Origin: Oceanospirillaceae bacterium
Lineage (GTDB): Bacteria > Pseudomonadota > Gammaproteobacteria > Pseudomonadales > Litoribrevibacteraceae
Length of the DNA stretch: 64,000 nt
Direction: 5' to 3'
NCBI GenBank assembly: GCA_015665455.1
Contig: JADFAD010000004.1
Location: 62,001-126,000, forward strand
Shown: piece by piece, positions 27,979 to 32,471 of the stretch
Numbering within the stretch: position 1 is the stretch's first letter
Layout: each line of letters begins with the position of its first letter
Made by a program: the position numbers and the translations under genes
Notes under the pieces: model-generated
Databases searched by the model: none
The model's input: the letters and a program-made list of their open reading frames with translations, nothing else
Told to the model about the DNA's origin: nothing

Positions 27979-30900
27979 TTACTCAGCAGCTTTATCAACC
28001 TGATTTGAGGTTTCAGGTGTTGAGCCTTGGGCTTGTGGCTCAGCCTTAGTCTCTTGTGGCTTAACTTCAGCAGGTTTAGTTGCTTCAGTCGGCGTGTTTT
28101 GCTGTGTGGCTACTGGCTTTTCAGTAGGTGCTTCAGCTGATTGTGCTTGAGTGTTTTCGCTTTTTTGAAGGCGAGGATCATTCGTTGCTCGTTTACTTGC
28201 TGAGCGGCGAGAAGGCCTTTTGGTCGCTTTAAAAGATTCAGAGCTGGAAGTGATTGTTTCAGCTTTGGGTTTTATTCTTTCCGGCGCTTTCTTAGCTTCA
28301 GCTGCTTTTTCTTCTGCTTTCTGATCTAGCTTCAGTTTGCGTTCGGCAGCTCTGGCACTTCGTCGAGTTGTTTTAGGCTTATCTTCAGGTGTACTCTTTA
28401 CTGTGTCTGAAGTTGCTTTTTCTTTCTCGGCAGTAGCGGTCAGAGTATTTTGTTCTGCATTGATACTTTTAACCACTTCAGGGGTTTCTTTGCTTGGCTC
28501 TTTAGACGGAGCTGGTGAAACTTCCTGCTTAGGTTTTGACGCTGTTTCTTGGCTTGGTACTGCTTGGTTATCGTCCGTGATCGGCTTATCTGCAGGTGTT
28601 GGTGTTTCTTTCTTTTCTGCAGTTTGAGTTGCGATCTCAGTTGCTTTATCTGAAGTTTGGTTTGAAGCTGAATTAGAATCTGCTTTGTTCTCAGAACGAT
28701 TTCTTCTGCGATCATTGCGGTTTCTTGTATTTCTTCTGCTTGAGTTGCCTTCTGACTGAGACTTTTTCTCTTGCTGTGTTTCGTTTGGCTTAGATTCTGA
28801 TTTTTTAACGTCAGAAACTTTAGCTTCAGGTGCTTTCACATCAGGCGTTTTTACATCAGAAGACTTAACTTCAGGCTTCTTAGTTTCAGGTGTTGTGTTG
28901 CTTGGTGTTGCTGCTGTGTTTGCTAGCTCTTGCTCAACTGCTGGTTTCTGATCTCGCTTTGGAGATTGATTTCTTCTGCGTTGAGTATTGTTGTTGCGTG
29001 AACGGCGACGAGGTTGATCTTCTCGTTTATTTTGAGCTGCGTTTGCTTGGTTGTCAGTTGTTGAGCGATCTTGTTGCTTTGTATTCTTGCGATCATCTGA
29101 CTGATTATTGCGTGCATTACGATCTTGCGCTTTATTATCGTTGTTTCTATTAGGCTTGCGATCGTGTTGATTGCCTGATTTCGTATTACGGCCTTGATCG
29201 TTACGGTTACGATCATTTCGATCGTTTCTGTTGCGGTCGTTTCTGTTGCGGTCGTTTCTGTTGCGGTCGTTTCTGTTGTTTTGAGATCTGTTTGAGTTAC
29301 GGTTCTCTTGAGGCTTTCTGTTACCTTGTTGACGTGGTTTTGTCTGCTTTGGTTCTGGCTTAGGTTCTTCTTCTGTTTTGAATAGATTAGAGAAGCCTGC
29401 AGAAAGACGGGCAAAGAAACCTTCTTTCTTCTTTGTTGTACTTTCTTGTGTTGCTGGTGTAGACGCAGCTTGAGCCGGTGCTGGAGTTGAATGAACAACA
29501 GTTTTGACTGCAGCTTCCGCCCTTACAATTGCTTTGGGCGCCGTAGCTTCAACAACTTCAGGTGTTGGCGCATCAGGGATCATAGCAACAGTAGATTCGT
29601 TACGAGTTTCAGTGATGTGATCATCTCGTAAGCGAACAACTTCATACTTTGGTGTATCAATATACTGATTTGGAACGATCAGTATTTTTACGCCTTGTTC
29701 TTTTTCTATACGTGATAGCTGAGAGCGCTTTTCATTGGTTAGGTAGGTTGCAACAGAGATAGGGACAATTGCTCTAACTTCAGAGGTACGTTCTTTGAAA
29801 GCTTCTTCTTGAAGAAGTCGCATGATCGAAAGTGCAAGTGATTCTGTGTCTCGGATGGTGCCGTGACCACTGCATCGAGGACAAACGATACCAGAGGTTT
29901 CACCAAGTGAAGGGCGAAGCCTTTGGCGAGACATTTCTAATAAACCAAAGCGAGAGATTCTTCCTACTTGAACGCGGGCTCTGTCCATTTCAAGCGCTTC
30001 GCGTAAACGGTTTTCTACTTCGCGCTGGTTTCTGCTTTGCAGCATATCAATGAAGTCAATTACGATTAGGCCACCCATATCGCGTAATCGAAGTTGACGT
30101 GCAACCTCGTCAGCTGCTTCAAGGTTCGTCATTAACGCTGTTTCTTCGATGTCAGAGCCTTTGGTTGCTCGGGCAGAGTTAATGTCGATGGATACTAGGG
30201 CTTCTGTTGGATCAATTACGATTGAGCCACCAGACGGTAATTTAACTTCACGTTGAAATGCAGTTTCGATCTGGGTTTCTATTTGATAACGATTAAATAG
30301 CGGTACGGCATCATCGTAAATTTTGATCTTGTTTGCATAGTGAGGCATAACTTGGTTGATGAAGGTAACGGCGTCGTTATGGACGGCGCGGCTATCAATT
30401 AGCACTTCACCTATGTCTTTACGCAGGTAATCACGAATCGCGCGGATAATTACATTGCTTTCCTGATAAATAAGGAAAGGTGCATCACGCTCATCTGAAG
30501 CTGATTTAATGGTATTCCAGATGGTCGTTAGGTAATTCAAATCCCACTGAAGGTCTTCAGTGCTGCGGCCTACACCAGCGGTTCTTACAATTACACCCAT
30601 GTCTCTTGGAATTTCCAAGCCTGACATGGCTTCTCTTAACTGTGTTCTTTCGTCGCCCTCAATTCGGCGCGAGATACCTCCTGCACGGGGGTTGTTAGGC
30701 ATAAGAACTAGGTAACGACCAGCAAGGGAAATGAAGGTTGTTAGTGCAGCCCCTTTGTTTCCTCGTTCTTCTTTGTCCACTTGAACGATAACTTCTTGGC
30801 CTTCTTTAAGAAGTTCTTTGATGTTTAAGCGTTGACCGCGTTCAGGCTTGCTGACGAAATATTCTTTAGAGATTTCTTTTAGGGGAAGAAAACCGTGACG

Positions 30901-31089
30901 TTCTGCACCAAAATCAACAAAAGCAGCTTCGAGGCTTGGCTCGATTCTAGTGATTTTAGCTTTATAGATATTGGCTTTTTTCTGTTCGCGAGTACCTGAC
31001 TCAATGTCTAGATCATATAGGCGTTGACCGTCAACAAGCGCAACACGCAACTCTTCTTGATGAGTTGCGTTGATTAGCATTCTTTTCAT
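27979..31089 (-). CDS. rne: Ribonuclease E
   Basis: A 1036-residue endoribonuclease. The catalytic half (1-530) contains an S1 domain (about 38-120), the metal-binding aspartates in [13 protein letters not shown] and [11 protein letters not shown] (about 300-350), and the zinc-link CPRCSGHG near 405. The C-terminal half (about 540-1036) is highly charged and low complexity, with RNDRN-type Arg/Asn/Asp repeats followed by Lys/Glu/Pro/Thr-rich stretches: the usual disordered scaffold for RNA and degradosome partners. It has its own promoter and a long structured leader upstream, as expected for RNase E autoregulation. Confidence 0.97.
29225..29278. repeat. 15-bp tandem repeat in the rne coding sequence
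   Basis: The unit TTTCTGTTGCGGTCG occurs three times in perfect tandem (29225-29269), then a partial copy. On the coding strand it specifies an Arg/Asn/Asp pentapeptide in the disordered arm of RNase E. Copy number could vary by slippage without shifting the frame. Confidence 0.9.
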
Positions 31090-31294
31090 GTAAATCCAAG
31101 TTTTTCAGTGGGTTGCATGCGGTCGATGATGCAGAAGTTAAACAAAAAGAATTGGACTTAAATAAAAAAGTACAAACGCCAAATGAAAATCTTCAACTGC
31201 AATTTCGAGTTATGCATGCCCCGAATGTTCAAAAACGACATCTTAGTTAGATTGTCGCAACTATTTTGGTAAACTAACCGCCTTTCTTCGGAAG

Positions 31295-31391
31295 GGTGGT
31301 GGTTCGCCTTCTCGAAGCCAAAGTGTCTTGCGCGGCTTGACGCTTTGAACCGAAGGAAATAAATAACTTCGGTTTTTTGTAATTCACCACC
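31295..31391 (-). ncRNA. Structured rne 5' leader element (four-way-junction fold)
   Basis: Within the rne leader, an outer 7-bp stem (GGTGGTG 31295-31301 with CACCACC 31385-31391) encloses three hairpins that abut each other: AACCGAAG/CTTCGGTT (31348-31355 and 31367-31374), CAAAGTGTC/GACGCTTTG with one mismatch on this strand (31319-31327 and 31339-31347), and a small one at 31301-31319. E. coli rne has an autoregulatory leader of about 360 nt (Rfam rne5); whether this element is homologous was not tested. The remainder of the 31090-31502 interval holds the promoter described below and AT-rich leader sequence. Confidence 0.65.
31348..31378 (+). terminator. Terminator-like hairpin on the plus strand within the rne leader
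   Basis: Read on the plus strand, AACCGAAG/CTTCGGTT with an 11-base loop runs directly into six Ts. No plus-strand gene ends upstream, because rne is on the minus strand. It could end an antisense or small RNA, or merely be the complement of the leader hairpin. Confidence 0.4.
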
Positions 31392-31451
31392 GGTTACAGA
31401 GCTAGATCATCATCTTTATGTGATACTAACTTAGTAGACGCGGCGACGCAG

Positions 31452-31480
31452 ACTATAGCAATAAATATCAAGACCATCAA
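31452..31480 (-). promoter_or_regulatory. Sigma70 promoter for rne
   Basis: On the minus strand: TTGATG, a 17-base spacer, TATAGT. Predicted transcription start is near 31445, giving a leader of about 356 nt before the rne ATG at 31089, close to the known length of the E. coli rne leader. Confidence 0.7.
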
Positions 31481-31502
31481 TTGAATAGGTTTATAGTTTT
31501 TT

Positions 31503-32471
31503 ATGAGTTTAACTTCCAGTAATCAAAGTGTCTCAGTTACGTATATTGAAGTAGAAGAGGATTATCAGGGGCAAAGGCTGGATAATTTCTTAATCACCAG
31601 GCTGAAAGGGGTTCCAAAATCCAAGGTCTATCAGATTATTAGGAAGGGTGAGGTTCGAGTAAATAAAAAAAGGAAGAAGGTGGATTATCGGTTAGAGACT
31701 GACGATGTGGTGAGGGTTCCGCCTATAAGAACCGCTGATCCTAAACCTGTAGTGAAGGTTTATGATAAAACCCTGAAGTTAATTGAAGATGCAATTATTT
31801 ATGAAGATGATTGCTTTATGGCCATTAACAAACCGAGTGGTATTGCTGTTCATGGTGGAAGTGGCGTTACTTGGGGGTTGATTGAGGCTGTGCGCCAGAT
31901 TAGGCCGGATGTTCGGCGTTTAGAGTTGGTGCATCGTCTTGATCGTGACACTTCCGGTATTATCCTGATTGCTAAGAAAGGAAGTGTCTTAAAAGTTTTT
32001 CATCAGTACTTACTAAATAAACAAATGTCTAAAATTTATCATGCGTTAGTGGTTGGTCGTTGGCCAAAGCATAAGCGCGAGGTGGATGTGCCGCTTAGAA
32101 AAATTGAATTGGCTTCCGGCGAACGAATTGTCAAAGTGGACGGCAAAGGAAAAAAATGTAAAACAGAGTATCGAGTTCTTGATGCGTATAAGGGGTACTC
32201 TTTGGTGGAGGCAAGCCCAATAACGGGGCGCACTCATCAAATCCGAGTGCATTGTCAATTTGCAGGAAGTGCAATTGTTGGGGATGTGAAATACTGCGCT
32301 GAAGAAGATTTATTGGAGCAAAAGACTCTCGGGTTTAATCGACTTTGCTTGCATGCACGGGAACTGCGCTTTAAACATCCTGAGACTGAGAAACCTATGA
32401 AGTTAACGGCTGATTATGATAGTGACTTTCAGAAAATTTTAACGAAGGTACAGTCTTTGGTGTCCAAATAA
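31503..32471 (+). CDS. rluC: 23S rRNA pseudouridine synthase RluC
   Basis: A 322-residue enzyme that modifies three uridines of 23S rRNA in E. coli. It has an N-terminal S4 RNA-binding domain (about 20-75) and a catalytic domain with HRLDRDTSG (catalytic Asp at about 147) and the RTHQIRVH segment. No good ribosome site is visible upstream of the ATG. Divergence from rne is the classical arrangement. The stop overlaps the next gene as TAATG. Confidence 0.95.
   Translation: MSLTSSNQSVSVTYIEVEEDYQGQRLDNFLITRLKGVPKSKVYQIIRKGEVRVNKKRKKVDYRLETDDVVRVPPIRTADPKPVVKVYDKTLKLIEDAIIYEDDCFMAINKPSGIAVHGGSGVTWGLIEAVRQIRPDVRRLELVHRLDRDTSGIILIAKKGSVLKVFHQYLLNKQMSKIYHALVVGRWPKHKREVDVPLRKIELASGERIVKVDGKGKKCKTEYRVLDAYKGYSLVEASPITGRTHQIRVHCQFAGSAIVGDVKYCAEEDLLEQKTLGFNRLCLHARELRFKHPETEKPMKLTADYDSDFQKILTKVQSLVSK

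Follow-up and report, generated by a model that had tools for sequence, protein, structure and literature searches.

In the window, by which we mean the whole stretch of 64,000 nucleotides analysed here, the gene for RNase E (rne) is preceded by a real and strongly conserved leader RNA that belongs to a lineage-specific class without an entry in Rfam. RNA decay in these bacteria centres on RNase E, whose control of its own synthesis is a textbook circuit. Judged by its position, length, promoter and conservation, the leader most likely serves RNase E autoregulation, as the E. coli rne leader does.

The rne leader and its conserved core

The rne gene was identified by an intact reading frame and by its orthologues, which were present in 57 of 57 relatives searched. 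Conservation was assessed against G001, the only other genome of the family that was compared. It belongs to a different genus, its RNase E is 95% identical across the first 160 amino acids, and all conservation tests below are comparisons of two sequences. The elements of the locus are as follows.

31475–31480, minus strand: −35 element TTGATG, identical in G001
31452–31457, minus strand: −10 element TATAGT with extended TG; TATATT in G001, with the 17-nt spacing kept
31090–31445, minus strand: predicted rne 5′ leader of 356 nt, placed from the promoter position, with the transcription start inferred
31246–31393, minus strand: conserved leader core, a four-way junction plus 3′ tail, from the alignment with G001 and matches of covariance model R1
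31260–31322, minus strand: block of 63 nt identical between the two genera, from the alignment with G001
27979–31089, minus strand: rne (RNase E) coding sequence, an open reading frame of 1036 amino acids with orthologues in relatives

The original prediction had proposed a minus-strand promoter, TTGATG-17-TATAGT, followed by a leader of about 356 nt that would come close to the E. coli length, and both proposals held. Because a scan expects 2.3 promoter matches of this quality by chance and found 2, the promoter call rests on the comparison with G001, in which both hexamers keep their positions and their 17-nt spacing (TTGATG-17-TATATT) and the spacer is partly diverged. The length of 356 nt predicted from this promoter compares with 361 nt in E. 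coli and with a predicted 425 nt in G001. Terminator-like sites were absent from the predicted leader, including the stretch between the core and rne, and the leader should therefore be continuous with the rne message. The core itself ends 156 nt upstream of the rne start codon. On the other side of the promoter lies the divergent gene rluC (31503–32471), and a second block identical to G001, of 28 nt, covers the promoter and the start of rluC.

How strongly the leader is conserved becomes clear from the adjacent gene. Over the first 1500 nt of rne just 42.5% of fourfold-degenerate sites are identical to G001, and the longest identical run in that region is 26 nt. A run of 63 identical nucleotides in the leader, set against this level of divergence, indicates very strong selection at the nucleotide level. 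Judged from the alignment, the constraint on the leader acts on nucleotides and not on a protein.

Secondary structure

Three sources were used to derive the fold, namely the minimum free energy (MFE) structure, the centroid and a two-genome RNAalifold consensus. The region 31236–31400 folds with a z-score of −3.6, and none of 200 dinucleotide shuffles was equally stable; the corresponding values are −2.4 for the core of G001 and −3.6 for the whole leader. Four helices, P1 to P4, were predicted independently in the window's genome (G000) and in G001, and again by RNAalifold of the pair.

31380–31389, minus strand: 5′ strand of the P1 closing helix, TGGTGAATTA (MFE and RNAalifold, both genomes)
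31267–31276, minus strand: 3′ strand of the P1 closing helix, TAGTTTACCA (MFE and RNAalifold, both genomes)
31348–31374, minus strand: P2 hairpin, AACCGAAG/CTTCGGTT, pairing 31374–31367 with 31355–31348
31319–31347, minus strand: P3 hairpin, CAAAG.GTC/GAC.CTTTG, pairing 31347–31339 with 31327–31319
31286–31317, minus strand: P4 hairpin of 10 bp, CTTCGAGAAGG/CCTTCCGAAG with loop CGAACCACCAC, pairing 31317–31307 with 31295–31286
31385–31391, minus strand: GGTGGTG, 5′ strand of the outer stem in the original prediction; complementary, but a disfavoured alternative
31295–31301, minus strand: CACCACC, 3′ strand of that outer stem, lying mostly inside the P4 loop

Taken together, the predicted folds support a compact four-way junction in which P1 closes P2, P3 and P4, with a free linker, AAAGGCGGT, on the 3′ side of P4. 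P4 is stable throughout, with a pair probability of at least 0.93 in every window folded and of at least 0.96 when the whole leader of the window's genome is folded. The basal stem of P2 is kept in G001 despite a loop that is 22 nt longer and an altered distal stem. The results for P1 should be interpreted with more caution. Its pair probabilities range from 0.5 to 0.97 in windows on the core, but when all 356 nt of the leader from the window's genome are folded, it gives way to a long-range helix that involves the 3′ end of the leader (P1 probability 0.02), and this makes its closing role uncertain. In the whole leader of G001 the P1 probability reaches up to 0.70. The models thus favor P1 as the closing helix, without certainty.

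A compact four-way junction had already been proposed in the original prediction, and a junction of three hairpins is well supported, although its closing helix and third hairpin had been drawn wrongly. The first two hairpins correspond to P2 and P3, and the third is replaced by the 10-bp P4 (31286–31317). The 7-bp outer stem GGTGGTG/CACCACC is present as a pair of complementary strands; as the closing stem it gives way to P1 and P4, with which it competes and which MFE, centroid and RNAalifold all use instead. When this stem is forced in the core of G000 or G001, the fold loses 3.7–4.5 kcal/mol of stability, and the stem's pairing probability is at most 0.01.

Compensatory changes, for which an alignment of related leaders had been suggested, were found in P3 alone; P1 and P4 are invariant between the two genomes, so that two sequences leave these helices untouched by covariation. 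P3 carries four substitutions in G001, with all pairs kept or gained: a G-C pair has become A-U through changes on both sides, a second G-C has become G-U, and a C.A mismatch has turned into C-G. Four randomly placed substitutions leave nine pairs in 0.3% of trials (p=0.003). We regard this as weak covariation support for P3.

Relation to known rne leaders

The distribution of the leader was explored with R1, a covariance model built from the two leader cores (G000 and G001). Among 70 sources, nearly all of them rne loci, R1 matched only its two source sequences; across 294 genomes of the order it matched the window's family only, all other matches having E values of 0.2 or worse; and in 229 genomes of the class it gave no credible match. 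Weak class matches of 20–25 bits were set aside as chance, the best being a truncated match unrelated to rne. By Smith-Waterman comparison of the core with the other collected rne leaders, the top z-score beyond G001 was 4.1 (L126), outside the invariant block. The core DNA had no match among plasmids and phages, and an exact 25-mer search of viral contigs found nothing.

Two Rfam families describe rne leaders, and the leader is, as far as model searches can tell, a recognisable member of neither. A search with the rne5 model (RF00040), the test put forward in the original prediction, matched neither the leader at E≤10 nor any other part of its genome; the G001 leader had no match at E≤1. The rne-II model (RF01756) likewise failed to match the leader at E≤10, the rest of the window's genome or G001. 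Positive controls scored 235 bits (E. coli, rne5) and 220 bits (pseudomonad L033, rne-II). Under stricter filters rne5 had 0 matches in 143 class genomes. Of 195 genomes of the order searched with rne-II, 7 gave a match, and these 7 belong to a single family other than the window's. None of the Rfam families matched the leader; one hit to RAGATH-15 was rejected because it scored 10.7 bits where the cut-off is 199.5.

Other lineages have structured rne leaders of their own. In E. coli a structured leader of 361 nt mediates RNase E feedback in cis (PMC8200214, PMC10989929); RNase E autoregulation has been reported for C. crescentus, and levels of the rne 5′ UTR and mRNA go up in P. aeruginosa mutants with a truncated RNase E (PMC11964227). 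The leader in the window resembles rne5, which occurs in E. coli and close relatives, in being a long structured rne leader (about 356 against 361 nt) with a divergent upstream gene and a presumed role as cis-acting feedback sensor; it differs in its sequence, in its four-way junction and in the missing model match. A short resemblance was noted in the E. coli leader (L050), where GAAAGGCGTTACTTTGCC, some 58 nt upstream of the start codon, recalls GAAAGGCGGTTAGTTTACC of the core (common pattern GAAAGGCG.TTA.TTT.CC; p about 0.01 in one test). None of the other leaders scored shares it, it found no support in 28 further leaders of the class, and it was not counted as homology.

Like rne-II RNA of the Pseudomonadaceae (Weinberg et al. 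2010, PMC2864571), which comes from the same GTDB order, the leader is structured, specific to its lineage and placed immediately before rne, but it does not match the rne-II model. In Synechocystis RNase E also acts on the long leader of its own mRNA (PMC10989929); there, compared by description only, cleavage falls at a U-rich site and premature termination plays a part.

A further structured RNA, of about 140 nt, is shared by the rne leaders of Marinobacterium, Nitrincola and Neptunomonas (alignment A2; L052:1237-1375, L061:1230-1367, L055:1218-1361, L051:1224-1372 and others). In this RNA 12 of 28 pairs are changed on both sides, and its covariation score exceeds 500 of 500 shuffles. Two leaders tested had no Rfam match, and the RNA is apparently an undescribed rne leader class. 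Like the leader in the window it is a conserved structured rne-leader RNA of the same order, but it forms one long irregular helix instead of a junction, and R2, the model built from it, matches neither the window nor G001. On these comparisons, rne leader RNAs look family-specific.

Proposed function and alternatives

By analogy with rne5 and rne-II, we consider it probable that the RNA is a lineage-specific, cis-acting leader for feedback control by RNase E. Transcription of the untranslated leader would be driven by the conserved promoter (31480–31452), and the transcript would fold so that P1 closes the other three helices, with a conserved tail left single-stranded after the junction. Such a leader would most likely serve in cis as a sensor of RNase E. 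When plentiful, the enzyme could bind the junction or P4 and then cut the rne mRNA, either in the U-rich stretch that separates the core from the start codon or within the coding sequence, and would in this way limit its own mRNA; when RNase E is scarce or busy, the rne mRNA would survive. RNase E-like cleavage motifs were counted, but they occur so often that they carry little information. By analogy, then, RNase E probably regulates its own synthesis through this leader.

Two other readings keep the RNA as a regulator of rne. The leader might be a two-state switch, in which the GGTGGTG/CACCACC stem together with a GTTAG/CTAAC hairpin (31278–31274 with 31250–31246) alternates with the P1/P4 junction, and RNase E or another ligand selects between them. 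The two alternative helices can coexist and would exclude P1, the GGTGGTG/CACCACC state can form earlier during transcription, and the competing strands GGTGGTG, ACCACCAC, GTTAGTTTACC and CTAAC are all invariant in G001, beyond what P1 to P4 need. However, the alternative state lies 7.4 (G000) or 3.8 (G001) kcal/mol above the free minimum, a sequence of this length should by our estimate contain a 7-bp complement somewhere by chance, and invariance between two sequences is no proof of alternative pairing; we hold a switch to be unlikely. About equally improbable is control of rne through the leader by a signal other than RNase E; a different RNA-binding protein, a small RNA or temperature would be examples. 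Little or no change is seen in the P4 loop CGAACCACCAC, the linker AAAGGCGGT and the tail even though they are unpaired, as would suit a binding surface for any partner, but the characterised rne leaders that we found in the literature are all under RNase E feedback.

We consider it very improbable that the conserved DNA is instead the gene of an independent small RNA or peptide, or that it works for the divergent rluC, even though short open reading frames cross the core and the 28-nt identical block also lies upstream of rluC. That block is distinct from the core, and the lack of a terminator between core and rne speaks against a separate RNA. A small coding sequence was rejected because the frames have no start codon in common, suffer a shift or an interruption in G001, and show no synonymous changes in the identical block; a 63-nt run of this kind is not coding-like where fourfold sites are near saturation.

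Feedback control by RNase E thus remains the preferred reading, and the leader would be the third class of rne leader, with no relation to rne5 or rne-II; the RNA of Marinobacterium and its relatives, which shows strong covariation, would be a fourth. With such unrelated classes one can test how a single conserved enzyme recognises them and whether the circuit evolved repeatedly. More tentatively, RNase E feedback leaders may have arisen or been rebuilt repeatedly, with an unrelated RNA for the same task in each bacterial family, the present one being a distinct four-way-junction class, possibly a two-state switch, that nearly the same enzyme recognises; we find this conceivable but doubtful.

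Additional observations

Directly after the rne −10 element lies a G+C-rich stretch, CTGCGTCGCCGC (31451–31440, minus strand), that is largely kept in G001; a discriminator of this kind is often a sign of growth-rate or stringent control. Transcription of rluC may be nearly leaderless (31492–31505, plus strand), as a TATAGT sequence stands 5 nt upstream of its ATG and a Shine-Dalgarno sequence is lacking. Finally, the C-terminal half of RNase E (28900–29500, minus strand) contains low-complexity Arg/Asn/Asp repeats, which probably form a disordered RNA-binding region.
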